From the IMG/VR virus record IMGVR_UViG_3300036760_000056, positions 1 through 42,801 of that record: a DNA stretch of 42,801 nucleotides, one strand, 5' to 3'. Within the stretch, counting starts at the first letter, position 1, and each line of letters opens with the position of its first letter. The notes beneath the pieces were generated by a model, which saw nothing but the letters and a program-made list of their open reading frames with translations, was not told where the DNA came from and did not search any database. Below, one piece after another: positions 4,189 to 23,173 of the stretch. The stretch is from a virus. The position numbers and the translations under genes are program-made.

Positions 4189-4632
4189 TTATTCTCCTTG
4201 GTAGTTCTTAAAGTCAGGAATTTGCAAATGCGGCCAGTCTTTTATCGACTTCCACGCTCCGCCTGATTCAAGGCCCACGGCTTTAGAAATCGCCAACAGG
4301 CTATAATAATACTTTTCTTCCCATAGATATTTTCCAGTCTGGTTATCGACCACAGCAACGTCGATAGCGCGACTCGGCTTATAGTTATGTGCGCCCAGAA
4401 CCGTAACGCCATCCACATTAGTAACAATCTTGGCTTTATCCTGAATGTACCATTTCCCGTCAGAACCAAGTGTTCGTCCCTTCTTAAAGAGTTCCAACTG
4501 TTCTGAAGGGAGTCTATGGACGCATGACAGAACAAGATATTTGCCCGGATTTGACTCGAAAAAAGCATTTTTTATTTCCTCCCACCTATCGCGTATTGGT
4601 TTCGCGGCATCGTTTATATCTTTGGTTGGCAT
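4189..4632 (-). CDS. M15-family peptidoglycan peptidase (endolysin)
   Basis: This 147-residue protein matches the VanY/L-alanyl-D-glutamate peptidase fold used by phage endolysins such as T5 Lys. The zinc site is visible: an AHNYKPSRAIDV block (His82, Asp91; a variant of the S-x-H-x-x-G-x-A-x-D motif) and a C-terminal DWPHLQI block (catalytic Asp132, zinc ligand His135). The early LSCVHRLPSEQLELF segment matches the helix that carries the substrate-binding Arg in this family. There is no signal peptide, so export would depend on a holin. The predicted substrate is the stem peptide of host peptidoglycan. GGAGG precedes the ATG. The fold is well supported; the exact bond cleaved is inferred from the family. 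Confidence 0.88.
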   Translation of the reverse strand: MPTKDINDAAKPIRDRWEEIKNAFFESNPGKYLVLSCVHRLPSEQLELFKKGRTLGSDGKWYIQDKAKIVTNVDGVTVLGAHNYKPSRAIDVAVVDNQTGKYLWEEKYYYSLLAISKAVGLESGGAWKSIKDWPHLQIPDFKNYQGE

Positions 4633-5699: not shown

Positions 5700-5820
5700 T
5701 TTGTAATTCCTCCAATAAAGTTTGAATATCCTGCCTATATACGGCCCACCACGACTTTCCCGGAATTGTCTCCGGGTGGTCGAGACGATATTTAATCGCC
5801 CTTACTAAGTCCGATTGCAC
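5644..5820 (-). CDS. Hypothetical small protein (58 aa), GTG start
   Basis: I choose GTG at 5820 because GGGAAGGA lies seven bases upstream; the ATG ten codons earlier has no ribosome site and lies deeper inside the protease gene. The protein (VQSDLVRAIKYRLDHPETIP onward) is helical and ends in a basic tail. It overlaps the HtrA-like gene by 29 bp and the coiled-coil gene by 56 bp. Confidence 0.45.
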   Translation of the reverse strand: MQSDLVRAIKYRLDHPETIPGKSWWAVYRQDIQTLLEELQNEQRKRQRTENSYTRNSR

Positions 5821-6583
5821 GTTTGAATCCTTCCCAATAACCAAGATCATACTTCGGTATAGATTTATCCACTCCGCGAAAATGGGTAAGAAACTCTATG
5901 ATCTGACCAGTTTGGACACTAAAACCTAAACCCGTAAACACATTGGCGCGAACTGGTGACACAATTCGACTATTGATACCGACAAGTTCGCCGCGCATAT
6001 TGATGAGAGGCCCACCGCTATTTCCCGGATTCAAAGACGTATCTGACTGTGACATATTATAGACACCAAGAGTATCACGATTCAACGCACTTAAAATACC
6101 ATGCGTTACTGTGAAATCGAAACCAAGTGGCGATCCAACTGCAATAACATCTTGGCCTACTTTGAGCTTGCGAGGATCGGCGAGTCTTATATATGGCGTC
6201 GGTTTATCAAAATTTGATTCAACAAGGGCCAAATCAAGCGACTCCTGTTTATACAAAACCTCGCCAGCCGTACATATCCCATTGTAATTACAGACAGTGA
6301 TTCCTGTGATAATTGGTAACGTGAACAGATGATGACACGTTAGAACATGATTATTCGGGCTTACAAAAACCCCCGCCCCCGATACCGTAACAGGTTTTGT
6401 TGACATATGAATCTCTATACCCGTTTTAGTAAATGTAATTCCATCTATAACTTCTGCGATGCCAGAAACGTATATACTCACACTTTTCGGAAGAGATTCC
6501 TCGCTAACCCTAACGAATCTATCCTGCCTGTTACATCCCGAAAACAAGACCAAAAGACCTACGACGAATAGATTAAACCGCAT
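5792..6583 (-). CDS. HtrA/DegP-like trypsin-fold serine protease, predicted lipoprotein
   Basis: The 263-residue protein begins with a signal sequence and lipobox-like site (LLVLFSGC, Cys17), so the mature protein should be lipid-anchored outside the cytoplasm. The protease domain follows: GAGVFVSPNNHVLTCHHLF carries the catalytic His (His85, or less likely His84), SLDLALVES the Asp117, and SLNPGNSGGPLINMRG the nucleophile Ser189 in the GNSGG box. The GSPLGFDFTVTHGILSAL segment is typical of the S1C (HtrA) group. There is no PDZ domain. GGAGG supports the ATG at 6583 rather than one four codons earlier. Proteases of this type process or degrade envelope proteins in bacteria. The catalytic assignment is solid; the role in infection is unknown. 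Confidence 0.9.
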   Translation of the reverse strand: MRFNLFVVGLLVLFSGCNRQDRFVRVSEESLPKSVSIYVSGIAEVIDGITFTKTGIEIHMSTKPVTVSGAGVFVSPNNHVLTCHHLFTLPIITGITVCNYNGICTAGEVLYKQESLDLALVESNFDKPTPYIRLADPRKLKVGQDVIAVGSPLGFDFTVTHGILSALNRDTLGVYNMSQSDTSLNPGNSGGPLINMRGELVGINSRIVSPVRANVFTGLGFSVQTGQIIEFLTHFRGVDKSIPKYDLGYWEGFKRAIGLSKGD

Positions 6584-6809
6584 TATGTCCTCCACATTTC
6601 ACGCCGCCATACGGTTTTCCATGAGACAACCAATGGAGCATTTCGTTACAAACGCCCACACCGACAAGAAACTGAAAACGGCGCGAGAATCTAAACCAAG
6701 GTGTAGCTTGATACTGGTGAATATAACCGTTTCTAACGCCAATCAAATCGTATATTGTCACGACTTGATCTGCTTCAAAAACAGGACGAGCATCGGGTGG
6801 GTTATCCAT
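6573..6809 (-). CDS. Hypothetical protein (78 aa)
   Basis: The ATG at 6809 has GGAG six bases upstream. A beta-rich N-terminal part (VFEADQVVTIYDLIGVRNGY) is followed by an aromatic/basic stretch and the C-terminal CNEMLHWLSHGKPYGG segment, which might be a metal site (Cys, two His). It overlaps both neighbours by about 10 bp. No family recognised. Confidence 0.5.
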   Translation of the reverse strand: MDNPPDARPVFEADQVVTIYDLIGVRNGYIHQYQATPWFRFSRRFQFLVGVGVCNEMLHWLSHGKPYGGVKCGGHNAV

Positions 6810-7602
6810 TTGTTCTCCAATCGCGCAATAGATTTTGACGCTTTTCAAACGTCAAAAGATTCTTTCCACCACGCGGCCATTTTCCACATTTTTGACAATG
6901 GTAGATTTGGTACTTGCCAGCTTCGGTACGAGCATATCCTTCTTTCGTGAGTTTATCACTTCCACATTTACACCGCATAACCGCGCCGTCCATATAAGTA
7001 GCCATATTCTGTGTGCGAATCCACCCATATAATTTTCCATATAGTTCTTCGGTGGATAGAACATCATGGATACAATAAGTCTTCATAACTTTCCAAGCGC
7101 GTTTATCTCCGGCCAAAATAGCAGACCAAAGTTCAAAACCCGGATATTCTTTATGTTTTAGTTTTTTATATTTGGTGTTCAAAACTTCTGCCATGTACTC
7201 CAACTTATGTGATGTGAACGCGAATATTTTACGACTTTCTTTCAGAAGATCGGTACTCTTACACGGCTTGATAGGCGGAAGGCCGTGAATAGCGGCTCTC
7301 GCGTTTAACTTCCTAACATCGAACTTTTCACCGTTTTGTGTAATGATTATATCTGCCTCATTTAGCAATTTGGACAAACCTTTTATAAGTTCTCTATCGT
7401 CTTGAATAAGGCGCGACGTACTATTATCCATGTACATAGTTTTCGACGCGGGATCACCATACCACTTTGCGGCCCATGCCAGCAAATGCCAGTCTTTTTT
7501 GATCTGGTTCAATCCTATGTTCTGGTCGAACAAACCCCATGTGTACGCCGTGATCGGGGCCGTTTCAATGTCGAATACGAGAATCTTTGGATCATTAGAC
7601 AT
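6802..7602 (-). CDS. DnaQ-like 3'-5' exonuclease with C-terminal zinc ribbon
   Basis: AAGGAG seven bases upstream fixes the ATG at 7602, giving 266 residues. The N-terminus KILVFDIETAP is the ExoI motif (DxE) of the RNase H-like DEDD exonuclease fold. ExoII is seen in DIIITQNGEKFDVRKLNARA and the ExoIII region in MKTYCIHDVLSTEELY (an Asp in a CIHDV context, as in DEDD enzymes). The C-terminal 60 residues hold a zinc ribbon (MRCKCGSDKL ... YHCQKCGKW). It belongs to the 'predicted 3'-5' exonuclease' group common in phages. It overlaps the RNA ligase start by 8 bp, so the two are probably co-translated; a shared role in nucleic-acid repair is inference. Confidence 0.85.
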   Translation of the reverse strand: MSNDPKILVFDIETAPITAYTWGLFDQNIGLNQIKKDWHLLAWAAKWYGDPASKTMYMDNSTSRLIQDDRELIKGLSKLLNEADIIITQNGEKFDVRKLNARAAIHGLPPIKPCKSTDLLKESRKIFAFTSHKLEYMAEVLNTKYKKLKHKEYPGFELWSAILAGDKRAWKVMKTYCIHDVLSTEELYGKLYGWIRTQNMATYMDGAVMRCKCGSDKLTKEGYARTEAGKYQIYHCQKCGKWPRGGKNLLTFEKRQNLLRDWRTNG

Positions 7603-8167
7603 TTTGTGTCTCCTTACCTTGTGCATCATTTTCCACTGTTTTCTTGAACATAACACCAGCGGCTTTATGGTAAATAACAATCCCTTCCGGCTTCATGTAT
7701 CCGGGGGCGACTTTGCTACCAGTTACCACCAAGTCGGTAAGTACCTTTTCAATGGCCTCGGTCGTAAATGCACCTTGATAGAGAATAGGTACGACTGATA
7801 CACATTTCGGTAATTCAACCATGTCTTTTGGAACTCGAAATAAAGTAAACCGACGCTCAAATAATTCATAGCCCCTCTGTATTCCCAAACCCCACCATTC
7901 ACCAAAATGAATACCATCACCAAGTTTTAGAAGTTCTTCTTTGTTCTGTCCAACCCACCGCGCAAAACCAAAGTTATCATTTTGTTCTTGAATGAACCGA
8001 TTGCGCGATCCAACTGAAATAATCTGGCCCTCGCGGATTTTGATTTGAGCATTAGTGCCATCTATTTTTTCTGTGATTACACAATCCCGGCTGATTCGTG
8101 CAATCTTCGGAAATGACTTAAATTCATCTATTCCTTTCACTTCTTCGCCACATTCAAGACATTCCAT
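7595..8167 (-). CDS. Small RNA ligase (nucleotidyltransferase domain only)
   Basis: The 190-residue protein carries the ordered motifs of the covalent nucleotidyltransferases: motif I EKIDGTN with the adenylated Lys34, motif Ia SRNR at 54-57, motif III HFGEWWG (88-93), motif IV EGIVIYH (161-167) and motif V VMFKK (172-176). This places it among RNA ligases of the T4 Rnl2-like/DRB0094-like type rather than NAD-dependent DNA ligases. It lacks the extra C-terminal domain of T4 Rnl2. The N-terminal CLEC pair may be half of a zinc site. AGGAG precedes the ATG. Phage RNA ligases usually seal broken host or phage tRNAs; this phage also carries tRNA genes. The substrate is not known. Confidence 0.85.
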   Translation of the reverse strand: MECLECGEEVKGIDEFKSFPKIARISRDCVITEKIDGTNAQIKIREGQIISVGSRNRFIQEQNDNFGFARWVGQNKEELLKLGDGIHFGEWWGLGIQRGYELFERRFTLFRVPKDMVELPKCVSVVPILYQGAFTTEAIEKVLTDLVVTGSKVAPGYMKPEGIVIYHKAAGVMFKKTVENDAQGKETQNV

Positions 8168-11547: not shown

Positions 11548-12063
11548 TTATTTCCACTCTTGCAATTTATAACGTAGGGCGTTTACCCATGATTGATTAT
11601 ATATTCCAACTCTCCACCAAAAGCGTTTTCTCCATGTACCCCATTTCTGATTTATCTTAACCGCCGCTTCTTCAAGAGAATCCACGATTAAATCATCCTC
11701 GAAAAAAGCCACACTCGAAATAGAAGGGCGACTACCATTAAGATACACGCGAACAACTGGTTTCCAAAGTAAATAACGTGCATACCCAAGTTCATGGGCG
11801 ACACCTTCCGATTTGCGATCTGGCGTAAGATCAATAACAACATGGGCTTCGCGGATCATTTCCTTATCGCGCTTCCAAAATCGCACCATTTGGGAATACG
11901 TCGAATTCGTGATTTTATTGGTTGGGCGCACACCTTCGGCGGTAACAGGATCAAGAGGTTCAACCCCATGCTCCCGAAGAATTCGCGCAACTCGTTTACT
12001 ACGCTCAACAAGTTCCTTACCTGTCAAACCTGTCATAGCTCCTGCCGTATAAGCCCTTACCAT
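11548..12063 (-). CDS. Nucleoside 2-deoxyribosyltransferase-like protein
   Basis: GAGG upstream fixes the ATG at 12063, giving 171 residues. The N-terminus MVRAYTAGAMTG and the block KSEGVAHELGYARYLLWKPV match the nucleoside deoxyribosyltransferase superfamily, where the Glu of HELGYA is the nucleophile position; AHVVIDLTPDRKS is the usual loop before it. The C-terminal 40 residues are basic and aromatic and may be an added element. It probably transfers or hydrolyses deoxyribose on nucleosides or nucleotides, supporting nucleotide salvage or base-modification chemistry. The exact substrate cannot be read from sequence. Confidence 0.75.
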   Translation of the reverse strand: MVRAYTAGAMTGLTGKELVERSKRVARILREHGVEPLDPVTAEGVRPTNKITNSTYSQMVRFWKRDKEMIREAHVVIDLTPDRKSEGVAHELGYARYLLWKPVVRVYLNGSRPSISSVAFFEDDLIVDSLEEAAVKINQKWGTWRKRFWWRVGIYNQSWVNALRYKLQEWK

Positions 12064-12161
12064 TTTATTATCCTCACCGTTATAGAAGAAACAATTTTTA
12101 TCAAAGGCCCATAACAGAAACCAATGATTATGGCACAAACCACATTGTTCAAAGTATTCAT
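12057..12161 (-). CDS. Very small membrane peptide (34 aa)
   Basis: An ATG in a TAATG overlap with the primase stop opens a 34-codon frame starting MNTLNNVVCAIIIGFCYGPL, a single hydrophobic helix, ending in a basic tail. GGAAG is present upstream. It overlaps the next gene by 7 bp. The position between real genes and the consistent hydrophobic helix support it, but its length makes it uncertain. Confidence 0.45.
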   Translation of the reverse strand: MNTLNNVVCAIIIGFCYGPLIKIVSSITVRIIKW

Positions 12162-15598: not shown

Positions 15599-16010
15599 TG
15601 GTGGCCTCCTCTTTGCCAAGGTTAATGAAAGATTCGGGACACTCCCACTCCACAACATCAATTTCGCGTTCCGGCTGCGCTTCAATCCGCTCTTCGGTCG
15701 CTGGAACGGTTTTCTTTCCGACCACAATTTTGCGACACACCACGTCACGGTTCGCCGTGACTAAAATCTTCACGCCTGATTCCAGTGTTGCCGTCGCGCC
15801 AGTTGTGTACTCATTGCGAGTCTTCTCAAACTTACCCAGTGACGCGCATAGCAATCCGAATTCTGTTTTATTCTTAGTGGAAAAAACTAGGTTAGGTGCA
15901 TCAAAAGTATCTTGCGGCCCTAACCATCCTTGAATCTTTTCTGGCCATTCGCGGGCGTCCACATAATCCGCCAACTCTCGTAAAGCTGCGACGTATTCTG
16001 ATTTTTTCAT
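15591..16010 (-). CDS. Hypothetical protein (139 aa)
   Basis: The protein begins MKKSEYVAALRELADYVDAR, a helical segment, then beta strands (FGLLCASLGKFEKTRNEY, TATLESGVKILVTANRDVVC, KIVVGKKTVPATEERI) and an acidic C-terminus. I have seen similar small phage proteins annotated only as hypothetical. There is a 1-bp TAATG-type overlap with the holin stop; the ribosome site is weak, suggesting coupled translation. Confidence 0.6.
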   Translation of the reverse strand: MKKSEYVAALRELADYVDAREWPEKIQGWLGPQDTFDAPNLVFSTKNKTEFGLLCASLGKFEKTRNEYTTGATATLESGVKILVTANRDVVCRKIVVGKKTVPATEERIEAQPEREIDVVEWECPESFINLGKEEATNV

Positions 16011-16432
16011 TATCGTGCCACCCCTTTGAATTTTTCATACGTCCGCAACGTACCCATACCAAGTAAGCCAAGTAACAAGCTCATAAGCTCACCAGTTTGA
16101 AAGACTGGTAATGTAACCGCCCGACCCGTTACCGCAATTCCCCAGTCCAATACTGGCTTAAGAACAAACGCCCACGCGCAACCAAAAGCGCATATCCAAC
16201 CAACCGCCGGACGCCACCCACTCACAAATAAGCTGTTCGATTTAGCTTCTTCTTTATTGATTTCTAATTGGCCTGTATCAACCTGTGTAAACAACTTCAA
16301 TAATTCTGTCTCTTGTTCAGCGAGTTTTAACGCTATTTCTGCTTTAGCGGCCTCGCGTGCGGCTGTATTAGGGATGATCTTATCGAGAACATTCCCAAGT
16401 ATTGGAAGTAAGCTGGCGATTAACGGTATCAT
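16010..16432 (-). CDS. 3-TM holin (gene-transfer-agent holin family)
   Basis: The 140-residue protein has a hydrophobic N-terminal helix (IPLIASLLPILGNVLDKIIP), a charged helix (AAKAEIALKLAEQETELL) and two more membrane helices (SGWRPAVGWICAFGCAWAFVL; MSLLLGLLGMGTLRTYEKFK). The GWRP ... LLLG.LG.G.LRTYEK signature is that of the 3TM holins named after gene transfer agents (PF11351-like). It would permeabilise the inner membrane to release the endolysin. It overlaps the upstream regulator gene by 4 bp (ATGA). Confidence 0.88.
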   Translation of the reverse strand: MIPLIASLLPILGNVLDKIIPNTAAREAAKAEIALKLAEQETELLKLFTQVDTGQLEINKEEAKSNSLFVSGWRPAVGWICAFGCAWAFVLKPVLDWGIAVTGRAVTLPVFQTGELMSLLLGLLGMGTLRTYEKFKGVAR

Positions 16433-16872
16433 TCTGTTTCCTCCTCTGTACTATATAGGCCGCTATTCGCCATTTTGACGACATACCATTTTGCCCCTTT
16501 TGATTTAATTCTTTCAATCATTTTTTGGATGGTAGTGCGTTTCACCCTCAATTTACGCGCTGTTTCTACTTGGTTTAATCCTTCTGAAAGGCACACCAAG
16601 ACTTGCTGTTCTCTCTTTGAAAACTTAATTTCGCGCCAATCTCTTTTAATGACTTTTCTTGTGAGGTTTTCTTGATCTTCACCAAACTCGGATAATACAT
16701 CTGGATTAGCTGTTGGGTATTCAGATTGTTCTTGTCCCGTTTCTCTTTTCGGATTCGACCTGTTATTATTACCAACAAATTCCCAATAAGGGCTACTTTC
16801 TCCATTGTAACATTTCTTAGTATTGGTATCTCTCAATTTTTGATATTTAACAATTCGTGATTTAGCACCCAT
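16429..16872 (-). CDS. Sigma-70 region 4-like / LuxR-type helix-turn-helix protein
   Basis: The 147-residue protein has a disordered polar N-terminal half and a C-terminal DNA-binding domain: FSKREQQVLVCLSEGLNQ, VETARKLRVKRTTIQKMIER. The pattern 'REQQVL.CL.EGLNQ.E.A..L...T.....R' is that of sigma region 4/LuxR-type HTH domains. No sigma region 2 is present, so it is a regulator rather than a full sigma factor. It is immediately upstream of the holin, overlapping by 4 bp, and may time late or lysis gene expression. AGAGG precedes the ATG. Confidence 0.75.
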   Translation of the reverse strand: MGAKSRIVKYQKLRDTNTKKCYNGESSPYWEFVGNNNRSNPKRETGQEQSEYPTANPDVLSEFGEDQENLTRKVIKRDWREIKFSKREQQVLVCLSEGLNQVETARKLRVKRTTIQKMIERIKSKGAKWYVVKMANSGLYSTEEETE

Positions 16873-18906: not shown

Positions 18907-19494
18907 TTATTCTCCCAGTAATTCCAACGCATAATTCATAATTTTTTTATCTATTTTTGCCCTCGCCGACCTCGCCGCTGACTCCGCCGCTGACTCCGCC
19001 GACCTCGCCGCTGACTCCGCCGCCGACCACGCCGACCTCGCCGCTGACTCCGCCGACCTCGCCGCTGACTCCGCCGACCTCGCCGCCGACCTCGCCGCTG
19101 ACTCCGCCGACCTCGCCGCTGACTCCGCCGCCGACCTCGCCGCTGACTCCGCCGACCTCGCCGCTGACTCCGCCGCTAACTCCGCCGCTAACTGGTCTAT
19201 TTTACCAGCCAGAAAGTCTTTAGCGGCCTGAATAGCTTTTCGTGGACGATTATCAGTCGGATATTCTTTCTCAAAATAATTTAATGATAATTCAGCAGAA
19301 TATATGGCCCATTTAATGTTTTGTGGGTGTGTTAGAAGTCGAGAAAGTAACCATCTAGCATAGTCCGCATGGTTATCTAACAACAAAGACGCAACAACGG
19401 CTTTTAACGATATTTTTTTACAGCTAATAAACCAGTCAATCCCCGCTTGACAGGCGTTTAGGTCTTTTAATTGATCTACAGTTATTTTAATCAT
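18907..19494 (-). CDS. Repeat protein with SAARSAE heptads (195 aa)
   Basis: Residues 1-98 form a helical domain (LKDLNACQAGIDWFISCKKI ... DYARWLLSRLL). It resembles the N-terminal part of phage proteins annotated as Imm5-like putative immunity proteins, where an 'ACxxGxxWF' start precedes Ala-rich repeats. Residues 99-182 are about twelve imperfect heptads built from Ala, Ser, Glu and Arg, then a short basic tail. The heptads probably form a long amphipathic helix or helical solenoid. GAGGAGG precedes the ATG. The repeat length should vary between relatives by slippage. The role is not known; the immunity label is an annotation habit rather than evidence of function. Confidence 0.7.
   Translation of the reverse strand: MIKITVDQLKDLNACQAGIDWFISCKKISLKAVVASLLLDNHADYARWLLSRLLTHPQNIKWAIYSAELSLNYFEKEYPTDNRPRKAIQAAKDFLAGKIDQLAAELAAESAARSAESAARSAAESAARSAESAARSAARSAESAARSAESAARSAWSAAESAARSAESAAESAARSARAKIDKKIMNYALELLGE
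18957..19200. repeat. Tandem repeat, 21-bp units with 6-bp and 9-bp variants
   Basis: A block of about 240 bp built from units such as gacctcgccgctgactccgc is repeated head to tail without unique spacers, inside the gene at 18907-19494. The unit encodes Ser-Ala-Ala-Arg-Ser-Ala-Glu on the minus strand. GC content is far above the surrounding sequence. Copy number may be collapsed or expanded in short-read assembly. Confidence 0.92.
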
Positions 19495-20763: not shown

Positions 20764-21714
20764 TTATTCCCCCTTATCAGTTCCACATAGATTTCGTAAT
20801 CTTTGCTGGTCTGCATCCTCTTCTGCTTGCCATTTTGCTACGCGTTGCGCTTCTGCGTCTTTTAATTCTTCATTCCACCAATGCTCGGAGGGTGTGTCGC
20901 TACTTAGCGCGGCCTTGTAGTCCTCTTTGTATTCCTGCACTAAGTCCGGTTGTCCTACCGTCGATATGTAGGCGGGTTTCCTACCCTCAAATGTACTAAT
21001 GCGCGGGTAAACTCCCCGTGTCCATCTTATTGTCACACCGGGCAAGACTTCATCAATCCCCGTTATATACGCCTTACACCGTTTCGCCGTTTGTACTATG
21101 ATTTCCGCCGTTGTCGCTATCACTACACCTACGCCGCGAACGTGCGCCAGAAACAGCGTGGCGGTTTCGTCCCGCCAGATATCTATGATTCCATTGTCGT
21201 TAAAGACAATCGCCGCGTAATACCCGCCCACACCATCTAACGATTTTGTGAGATTCCTAGCGTCTTTTTTTACGTCGTGTTCTAAGTATTGAGATAACAA
21301 TGCCTCGCTGTCACAAGTGCTTAACGTCCGCGTAAACTTATCCGCGTTTGTTATGATCCCATTGTGCATTAAGGCCGCGCCGCCCTTATAGAAAGGATGC
21401 GTATTAGCCAGACTCTTTTCGCACGTTGCAAACCTTCCATGTATGGCAATGGCGTATAACTTTTCAGATGATACACCCTCTGCATTTTGTTGGTGTCTTA
21501 ATGCCTTCTCGTACTTAAACAAGGCCGCGCTCTTCTTAGCTCTTAAGACTTTGGGCGGTTCTAACCAGCGTTGAATTGAAACGCCGCGTTCTCCTAGTCT
21601 CATAATCCCTAGACCGTGATTGTCTGATTTAGTCACAATCGGAATTGCCTTTTTAGCGAATAGTTCCGCGTTCTTTTGATTTTCAATTTCTACAATGGCG
21701 AATAATTTGCACAT
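20764..21714 (-). CDS. Class II glutamine amidotransferase (Ntn glutaminase domain)
   Basis: The 316-residue protein releases ammonia from glutamine. The catalytic Cys2 follows the initiator Met (MCKLFAIVEI). The glutamine-binding and oxyanion elements of the PurF/GlmS fold are present: HGRFATCEKSLANTHPF (Arg94), MHNGIITNADKF (Asn118-Gly119) and TCDSEALLSQYL (Asp135). After the glutaminase domain the protein ends in about 70 charged residues with no phosphoribosyl, sugar isomerase or synthetase domain, so ammonia must be passed to a partner. GAGGAGG precedes the ATG. The amidoligase gene lies directly upstream, one base away, and is the obvious partner. Confidence 0.9.
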   Translation of the reverse strand: MCKLFAIVEIENQKNAELFAKKAIPIVTKSDNHGLGIMRLGERGVSIQRWLEPPKVLRAKKSAALFKYEKALRHQQNAEGVSSEKLYAIAIHGRFATCEKSLANTHPFYKGGAALMHNGIITNADKFTRTLSTCDSEALLSQYLEHDVKKDARNLTKSLDGVGGYYAAIVFNDNGIIDIWRDETATLFLAHVRGVGVVIATTAEIIVQTAKRCKAYITGIDEVLPGVTIRWTRGVYPRISTFEGRKPAYISTVGQPDLVQEYKEDYKAALSSDTPSEHWWNEELKDAEAQRVAKWQAEEDADQQRLRNLCGTDKGE

Positions 21715-21715
21715 A

Positions 21716-22906
21716 TTAAGCTACCTCCTCTAATTCAGCCTCTTCGTTTTCTTCTGGTACTTCGTCAATTAGTATCTGGTTTTGTTCCGTGTCGCTTTCA
21801 GCATCCGGCGCAAGCGCGTTAAGACTTGCAAACTTTGTTTGACGCGCTTCTAACCATGCCACGTTTGAATCTGATAAGTTCCAATACTTCCGCGCCGATA
21901 CGAAGGAACGCGGACACCTTAAGACAATCGCGCCCTCGCTTATTGCGTGTAGGGTTTCAATCCAATTTATGATTTTATCCGCGTCTAAAGTACCACCAAA
22001 AAGCCTAATTTCCAGCGTTTTGTACCTATCCCATGCACTCGCATTTATCGCGTAATAACGGCTACCATTTCGCGCCGCTTGAAAATCCGCGTGTCTATTC
22101 CGGCGACAAAACGTATTTTTCCGGCGACTTTTCGGTACGACGGTATATAGAAGGTTCAAACTCCTAACTAATTTCTGAAACGCCAACGCGGGTTCATTGT
22201 TTTCCCGCTGGTCTAGGTGAACGTGTAACCCACAAGACCTATTTACGCGTGCGCCAATACCTTGCAAGGCCGCCAACAAGGGTGGGAGAACCTCGCGGAT
22301 TTCCTCGCGCTTCAAACATACGCGCAATTCCGTACCTGTTTCGTTTCCTTCATGGTTTATAGAACCATCGCGACCTACATCAACCCATTTTGAGAAGGGA
22401 TAAAGCGCGGAAAAGTCCGCGTCTTTAGGCGTGATACACTCTATTTCGATACCTACATATTTTCCCGCGTCATTTGGTTGTTTAGGTGTACTTAGTCTTT
22501 TCTTCTGAAAGTTTAAGTACACGCCGCTTATGATCTTGTTTGCTAAGTAATCCCCTGAAATATCCCGCGTGCGGTGTCTTTCCCTATGGATTAAATCGCG
22601 TATGCTTCTAAGCGCATCGTGTCGGTCTGAATGATTTTCTAGGCATTCTTCTATTAGCCGTCCATTAAATCGCCGCGATATAACACTAATTGGTTTACGC
22701 ACAATCTCCTGTAAATATGCGACCTTAAGTCCTTTAATATCATCCCGCAAATATCGCACGTTATTTATACTTCCCGCCTTTTTACCCGCGCTTATCGCCA
22801 GCGCGAACGCGTAGCGGGTTTCTTTTAGGGCGCGATATAGCTTTATCGCGTGTTCACGGTTTATTTTATTTTGCTGGTATTTGAAAGTATATAAATATGT
22901 TTTCAT
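21716..22906 (-). CDS. COOH-NH2 amidoligase (glutamine synthetase-fold)
   Basis: The 396-residue protein belongs to the amidoligase family of the glutamine synthetase fold, which activates a carboxylate with ATP and joins it to an amine or ammonia. Signature blocks are YVGIEIECITP (Glu154 and Glu156, metal ligands), VDVGRDGSI (Asp180), GTELRV (Glu193), SCGLHVHLDQ (His228, His230) and TLEIRLFGGTLD (Glu299, Arg301). Residues 1-145 form an extra basic helical domain that may bind the substrate. The C-terminus is acidic. AGGAGG precedes the ATG. The neighbouring glutamine amidotransferase can supply ammonia, suggesting amidation of a carboxyl group on a protein, peptide or wall component. The substrate is unknown. 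Confidence 0.88.
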   Translation of the reverse strand: MKTYLYTFKYQQNKINREHAIKLYRALKETRYAFALAISAGKKAGSINNVRYLRDDIKGLKVAYLQEIVRKPISVISRRFNGRLIEECLENHSDRHDALRSIRDLIHRERHRTRDISGDYLANKIISGVYLNFQKKRLSTPKQPNDAGKYVGIEIECITPKDADFSALYPFSKWVDVGRDGSINHEGNETGTELRVCLKREEIREVLPPLLAALQGIGARVNRSCGLHVHLDQRENNEPALAFQKLVRSLNLLYTVVPKSRRKNTFCRRNRHADFQAARNGSRYYAINASAWDRYKTLEIRLFGGTLDADKIINWIETLHAISEGAIVLRCPRSFVSARKYWNLSDSNVAWLEARQTKFASLNALAPDAESDTEQNQILIDEVPEENEEAELEEVA

Positions 22907-22918
22907 ATTCTTAACCTC

Positions 22919-23173
22919 CTATATTAAATCAATCTTACAATCTGTTTCAGTCACTAAAACCGCGTCTTGTTTATTGTGCGCCTTAATCCTTTCAGCCATT
23001 GCCCTTACAAGGAAAGTATTGTCCGTGTAAATGATAATATCAAGACTTTTTTCCTTTTCGCCCTTCCAAAACCCCGCGCCCTTCACAATCGTAAACCCGT
23101 CAAAACCTAATGATAGCAGATTTTCAATCCATTTCGCGTCTTTGTTTTCTGTATGAATATCGTACCGTTTCAT
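22919..23173 (-). CDS. Hypothetical small protein (84 aa)
   Basis: AAGGGG precedes the ATG. The protein (MKRYDIHTENKDAKWIENLL) folds as beta-alpha-beta-alpha-beta (FDGFTIVKGAGFWKGEKEKS, LDIIIYTDNTFLVRAMAERI, DAVLVTETDCKIDLI). It could be a small ferredoxin-like or ACT-like regulatory fold. I have seen similar short proteins in phages carrying amidoligases only as 'hypothetical'; any link to that system is inferred from position. Confidence 0.6.
   Translation of the reverse strand: MKRYDIHTENKDAKWIENLLSLGFDGFTIVKGAGFWKGEKEKSLDIIIYTDNTFLVRAMAERIKAHNKQDAVLVTETDCKIDLI

Follow-up and report, generated by a model that had tools for sequence, protein, structure and literature searches.

In LUZ24-like phages (LUZ24, tf, PaP3 and UFV-P2), an amidoligase and a glutamine amidotransferase (GATase) have been described (PMC3890496, PMC3517423), and RIO-1-like phages carry a peptidoglycan modification cassette that was hypothesized to prevent superinfection (PMC5498523). 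Amidoligase and GATase genes were also reported from OM43 phages, where the superinfection idea is credited to Iyer et al. 2009 (PMC10580990). Work on Arthrobacter cluster AL phages described a gamma-glutamyl cyclotransferase (GGCT) and an amidoligase, with gp97 termed AIG2-like (PMC5513430), and the records of these phages also carry an annotated GATase. Clostridium clostridioforme prophages encode an amidoligase and a GGCT (PMC11318856), and the Phage-ZRK32 genome has genes for GATase, amidoligase, glutathione synthase and GGCT (PMC10945688). Two other systems bear comparison. Ergothioneine synthesis uses a homologue of gamma-glutamylcysteine ligase, EgtA, together with a class II GATase homologue, EgtC, that hydrolyzes a gamma-glutamyl bond (PMC9103826). 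MurT/GatD is a two-gene unit for peptidoglycan glutamate amidation, in which a glutaminase and a ligase act on a cell-wall peptide (PMC3267633). Our literature search, which had most subscription journals outside its reach, returned no paper reporting the substrate of a phage amidoligase module.

The window analyzed here is a 42,801-nucleotide stretch of viral DNA (IMG/VR record IMGVR_UViG_3300036760_000056), and it carries a divergent two-gene version of this widespread phage amidoligase/GATase cassette (Table 1). As in LUZ24-like phages, a PF12224 amidoligase and a class II GATase lie on one strand among the early genes. The LUZ24-like pairs differ in being accompanied by a PF14395 COOH-NH2 ligase and an ATP-grasp gene, and in UFV-P2 the two genes are one gene apart and the GATase is far longer (486 aa). 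The phiEco32/RIO-1 cassette also has its GATase and amidoligase in the early/replication genes, but it comprises seven genes, including a GGCT, a second amidoligase and an ATP-grasp protein, whereas the window is limited to the core of two genes; we found no GGCT or ATP-grasp homologues among the ORFs of the 42.8-kb window. Arthrobacter Laroyevirus and Ottawa phages (e.g. Salgado gp98-gp99) have an amidoligase followed by an adjoining stand-alone GATase, which is the order seen in the window. However, a GGCT lies directly upstream of these pairs (Salgado gp97), the amidoligase has a shorter and different N-terminal region, and the GATase is only 16–18% identical to that of the window. The nearest relative is L001 (IMGVR_UViG_3300032893_000068), a different phage genome in which the GATase is 60% and the amidoligase 45% identical to the window proteins. 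Its genes adjoin with a 6-base gap, its amidoligase has an N-terminal extension that resembles that of the window protein in length and charge, and its early operon is syntenic with that of the window, including primase-helicase and holin-family homologues. The MurT/GatD system resembles the window pair in that two genes supply a glutaminase and a ligase, but the protein families differ from a class II GATase and a PF12224 amidoligase: we take GatD to be a class I (triad) GATase and MurT to be a Mur ligase relative. EgtA/EgtC is alike in that a class II GATase-like protein lacking an acceptor domain accompanies the ligase.

Table 1. Positions of the amidoligase/GATase gene pair, its domains and its upstream neighbor in the window.
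Feature	Positions	Strand	Details
PF12224 amidoligase, 396 aa	22906..21716	-	N-terminal extension (1-147), catalytic domain (148-365) and acidic tail
Stand-alone class II (Ntn) GATase, 316 aa	21714..20764	-	
Amidoligase N-terminal extension, residues 1-147	22466..22906	-	Charge, structure model, comparison with L001
Amidoligase catalytic domain, residues 148-365	21812..22465	-	45-sequence alignment, structure model
Single base between amidoligase stop and GATase ATG	21715..21715	none	
84-aa gene directly upstream of amidoligase, same leftward block	22919..23173	-	phrog_16022, function unknown

A previous sequence-only reading of the window had placed the GATase gene one base downstream of the amidoligase gene, and the reading frames in Table 1 agree with this arrangement. 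A strong Shine-Dalgarno sequence (AGGAGG) precedes each gene, and that of the GATase overlaps the 3' end of the amidoligase gene. With a spacing of a single base, the two genes are likely to be translationally coupled. The pair had also been described as lying near a promoter. One candidate sigma-70 site, matching at 10 of 12 positions, is found at 23755-23727 on the minus strand, but such sites are no commoner than in shuffled sequence. Homologues of the 84-aa upstream gene were not found beside other amidoligase/GATase pairs, and clustering of neighboring gene families showed that L001 alone shares further families with the neighborhood of the window pair.

The GATase begins with MCKLFAIVE (ATG-TGC), leaving Cys2 as the putative nucleophile. 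It matches the PHROGs glutamine amidotransferase family (4.9e-8), and its Pfam GATase_6 match (PF13522, E=2.1e-5) scores 25 bits, slightly below the cut-off of 27. A PDB search with a 45-sequence GATase profile returned GlmS (7.5e-21), PurF and EgtC (4zfj, 0.0012). All the motifs reported before (Cys2, HGRF within HGRFAT, MHNGIITN and CDSEALL) are present, and M1, C2, G36, H92, R94, T97, H106, P107, H117, N118, G119 and D135 are invariant in the 45 aligned GATases. The profile alignment to GlmS pairs Cys2 with the nucleophile C1, R94 with R73, N118-G119 with N98-G99 and D135 with D123; we take the GlmS residues to be the nucleophile (C1), glutamine-binding residues (R73/D123) and the oxyanion pair (N98-G99). 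The AlphaFold model (pLDDT 80.9) has a predicted Ntn-hydrolase fold, and Foldseek matched it both to the glutaminase domain of GlmS (1xff, E 1.9e-12, TMt 0.71) and, at a TMt of about 0.70, to EgtC (4zfj). The glutaminase domain spans about residues 1-242 and is followed by a diverged helical tail, and the earlier statement that the protein has no acceptor domain is correct. The window GATase is a class II glutaminase domain with intact checked residues, and because it lacks an acceptor domain, it is most naturally read as part of a two-protein unit. A tblastn search with this protein against 50,697 phage records gave no match at 1e-5, nor did a related GATase (L020) match GenBank phages, and an Arthrobacter GATase query matched 332 phage records. 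In the material searched here, all members of the GATase subfamily of the window came from uncultivated viruses or metagenome contigs.

The amidoligase matches Pfam Amidoligase_2 (PF12224, E=1.7e-14, 54.8 bits, cut-off 22) and phrog_2443 (4.7e-18). Its motifs GIEIEC, SCGLHVHLDQ and TLEIRLFGGTLD are where they had been reported, and E154, E156, D180, S182, G226, H228, H230, R261, Y284, E299, R301 and W315 are invariant in 45 aligned amidoligases. Judged by its sequence, the protein is a PF12224 member with intact checked residues. Catalytic residues are kept in both proteins when they are aligned with their families, as seen in the two invariant sets and in the GlmS correspondence. The catalytic domain was modeled with pLDDT values mostly between 87 and 98, and a Foldseek search with the model retrieved numerous amidoligases from phages, among them Arthrobacter phage Salgado and Pseudomonas phage tf. 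The same model had no significant fold match in the PDB, where only insignificant ACT/PII-like matches were returned. In a loose form, the ordered motifs GxExE...HxH...[ST]xExR occur in E. coli YbdK and in 77 of 119 amidoligase ORFs, compared with none of 521 other ORFs (200 aa or longer) and two of 20000 YbdK shuffles; the hhalign comparison of the amidoligase with YbdK was weak. Given the lack of a significant PDB match, assignment of the window protein to the glutamine synthetase (GS) fold draws on Pfam and on the three motifs shared with YbdK, which presumably has this fold. Together, the family assignments of the GATase and the amidoligase are well beyond chance.

To examine how general the pairing is, we collected relatives from 80 IMG/VR loci, 12 GenBank phages and 4 metagenome-assembled contigs. 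Removal of duplicates and clustering at 90% identity left 84 non-redundant amidoligases. Counts from this set carry a sampling caveat, because similarity to the window amidoligase determined the ranking of the IMG/VR loci. These relatives do carry the pair: for 62 of the 84 amidoligases, a class II GATase gene lies on the amidoligase strand no more than 450 bp away, downstream in 47 cases and upstream in 15. Three of those 62 have both a GATase and a GGCT within that distance, another 12 of the 84 have a GGCT only, and the remaining amidoligases have a remoter partner, no partner or a contig end. In Bacillus phage 031MP004, a GGCT gene lies 1.1 kb from the amidoligase gene and there is no GATase. 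Conversely, the 1.09 Mb of loci contained 70 GATase matches, and almost all of these were next to an amidoligase. Distance matrices for the two proteins were correlated (Spearman 0.53, where the best of 1000 permutations reached 0.15), a value to which shared phage ancestry contributes, and the correlation was 0.40 when restricted to deep pairs. These data show that the linkage of amidoligase and GATase is kept across very divergent phages. Because 12 amidoligases have a GGCT and no GATase nearby, not every member of the PF12224 family needs a GATase.

On the amidoligase tree, sequences with the same partner type cluster together, and switches are few. The window protein pairs with L001 (98), and this group joins L017/L018 with weak support (80). 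Both of the latter loci have a RimK-like ATP-grasp gene just after the pair (PF08443, 4.2e-9 and 6.1e-10), which recreates part of the gene set that was published as a peptidoglycan modification cassette. The "hypothetical" genes upstream of the Arthrobacter amidoligase (L011:5057-5509 and L010:5060-5527) are GGCTs (PF06094, 2.1e-18 in L011). Among all ORFs of the collected loci there was no GATase-amidoligase fusion, and the only fusion found joins a GATase to a GGCT. This single ORF of phage C75C1 (L005:7747-8643), annotated in its record as gamma-glutamyl cyclotransferase only, has an N-terminal class II GATase (MC start, HFRFAT, SNG) and a C-terminal GGCT (PF06094, 2.7e-21). The fusion and the Arthrobacter GGCT-amidoligase-GATase trio show that GATase and GGCT can substitute for each other or occur together.

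The N-terminal domain of the amidoligase was previously called basic, helical and unique. It is real and carries a net charge of +16, and it is predicted to be all-helical at low confidence (pLDDT block means 38-62 over residues 1-120). It is not unique, because most GATase-paired amidoligases are extended and L001 has a homologous domain. Identity between the window and L001 is 23% in the extension and 61% in the catalytic domain, so the extension is common to the two phages but fast-evolving. Across the survey, the median extension was 137 aa in GATase-paired amidoligases (n=57) and 10 aa in those with a GGCT only (n=14), although with only one well-supported independent contrast (four in all) this association of extension length with partner type is a lead rather than a result. 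The composition of the extension also varies, being CxxC-rich and acidic in the L048/L050/L066 group as opposed to basic and helical in the window.

The two neighboring gene products very probably work as a team. The reading we prefer, and to which we give an even chance, is that this two-subunit phage module carries out glutaminase-fed, ATP-dependent amidation of a carboxylate. By analogy with the respective families, the GATase would use Cys2 to hydrolyze glutamine to glutamate and ammonia, and the amidoligase would use ATP to convert the substrate carboxylate into an acyl phosphate, from which an amide would form with the captured ammonia (or an amine). The two proteins might also form a complex that channels ammonia. 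As for the acceptor, the genomic context hints at a carboxylate on a peptide of the host cell wall or of a cell-wall precursor, which may be modified early in infection, and a cell-wall peptide is the most plausible choice. Effects on peptidoglycan and superinfection had been raised in the sequence-only reading as a speculative idea for this pair, and they were already published for other phages (PMC5498523, PMC10580990). Amidoligase modules are common in phages, and a two-gene core that lacks the rest of the cassette offers a clean minimal case for finding the amidated target. The survey pattern of a GATase or GGCT next door, with the extension mostly accompanying the GATase, can guide the choice of model phages.

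An ammonia-fed amidation unit, as first suggested for this pair, is plausible but is not the only chemistry to consider, because an EgtA/EgtC-type pair hydrolyzes a gamma-glutamyl bond. Following that logic, the amidoligase would make a gamma-glutamyl amide and the GATase-like protein would cleave a gamma-glutamyl bond with no donation of ammonia to its neighbor; we rank this first among the alternatives and consider it unlikely though well short of negligible. It has a precedent in EgtC, which acts as a hydrolase (PMC9103826), and the window GATase has EgtC among its profile matches and a Foldseek score for EgtC that is level with that for GlmS. The profile search nevertheless favors GlmS over EgtC by many orders of magnitude in E value. 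Residues that bind the gamma-glutamyl group are common to glutaminases and EgtC-like GATases, so the two kinds cannot be told apart by sequence. GATase and GGCT both act on gamma-glutamyl compounds, and the EgtA/EgtC-like alternative keeps weight for this reason: the GGCT that takes the place of the GATase beside some amidoligases likewise cleaves gamma-glutamyl bonds, and phage C75C1 joins the two domains in one ORF. The ligase itself argues in the other direction, since PF12224 is not the GCS2/EgtA family. EgtA presumably belongs to PF04107 (GCS2), and no PF04107 match was found in the window genome by a search that was positive in 5 of 14 control genomes.

The same amidation chemistry could instead serve a host or phage protein or a small metabolite, with the variable extension recruiting the target. 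The extension has diverged far more than the catalytic domain and differs between clades, which fits target recognition, but it could equally dock the GATase. No target was recognized, and the RimK-like ATP-grasp neighbor in L017/L018 fits peptide and protein targets alike; we regard a protein or metabolite acceptor as rather improbable. We are similarly doubtful of a broader proposal in which the amidoligase is half of an exchangeable system, its partner frees an amine from a gamma-glutamyl carrier and the extension is a partner-docking or channel-forming domain. Under this proposal, with the same small likelihood, a GATase would yield ammonia from glutamine and a GGCT would yield R-NH2 from gamma-glutamyl-amines, and the window pair would then be a pared-down system that works with ammonia alone and whose docking domain has diverged. 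Finally, a role in auxiliary nitrogen or amino-acid metabolism that aids nitrogen use by the infected host, as put forward for Phage-ZRK32 (PMC10945688), is very improbable, because that proposal is speculative in its source, Pfam and PHROGs recognized no metabolic gene beside the window pair, and glutamine consumption is all that could be expected of a GATase acting alone with no biosynthetic acceptor domain.

Other arrangements were seen in the collected loci. Several loci have a triplet in which one GATase gene lies between two different amidoligases, the first of about 600-650 aa and the second of about 380-396 aa, with CxxC-rich regions preceding the catalytic domains (L039, L049, L050, L053, L055, L059, L060, L062, L065, L067, L069, L070, L074, L080, L091, L092, L094 and L095). 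A small conserved gene is found in 13 loci (L026:2393-2734, L027:4429-4776, L043:6217-6558 and relatives), often directly upstream of the pair. This gene looked by eye like a lysozyme (AIVSVESGGN...GPAQ), but Pfam, PHROGs and PDB sequence searches gave no match where tested, and we set that assignment aside.

Elsewhere in the window, the gene previously called an M15 endolysin gave a PF13539 match at 4189-4632 that is sub-threshold only (6.5e-5, 23.9 bits, cut-off 25). The terminase is nearest to those of Paenibacillus larvae phages (31%), which, together with the AGGAGG-type ribosome sites of the leftward genes, is weakly compatible with a Firmicutes host. Several minus-strand genes of the window also have recognizable domains. 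A trypsin-like serine protease (PF13365, 8.7e-26) is encoded in the leftward block at 5792-6595, and an RNA ligase domain protein (PF09414, 1.3e-12) at 7595-8167. The nucleoside 2-deoxyribosyltransferase gene at 11548-12138 (PF05014, 2e-9) adjoins the primase-helicase gene, and a role in nucleotide or base modification is possible. A three-TM holin family protein (PF11351, 2.6e-21) is encoded at 16010-16432 within the leftward block, with a gene for a sigma-factor-like HTH protein directly upstream (16429-16872). Nearer to the pair, the leftward (early) block also contains, at 18907-19494, a gene for an Imm5-like protein (PF21805, 3.8e-10) that has weak PHROG tail-fibre matches.
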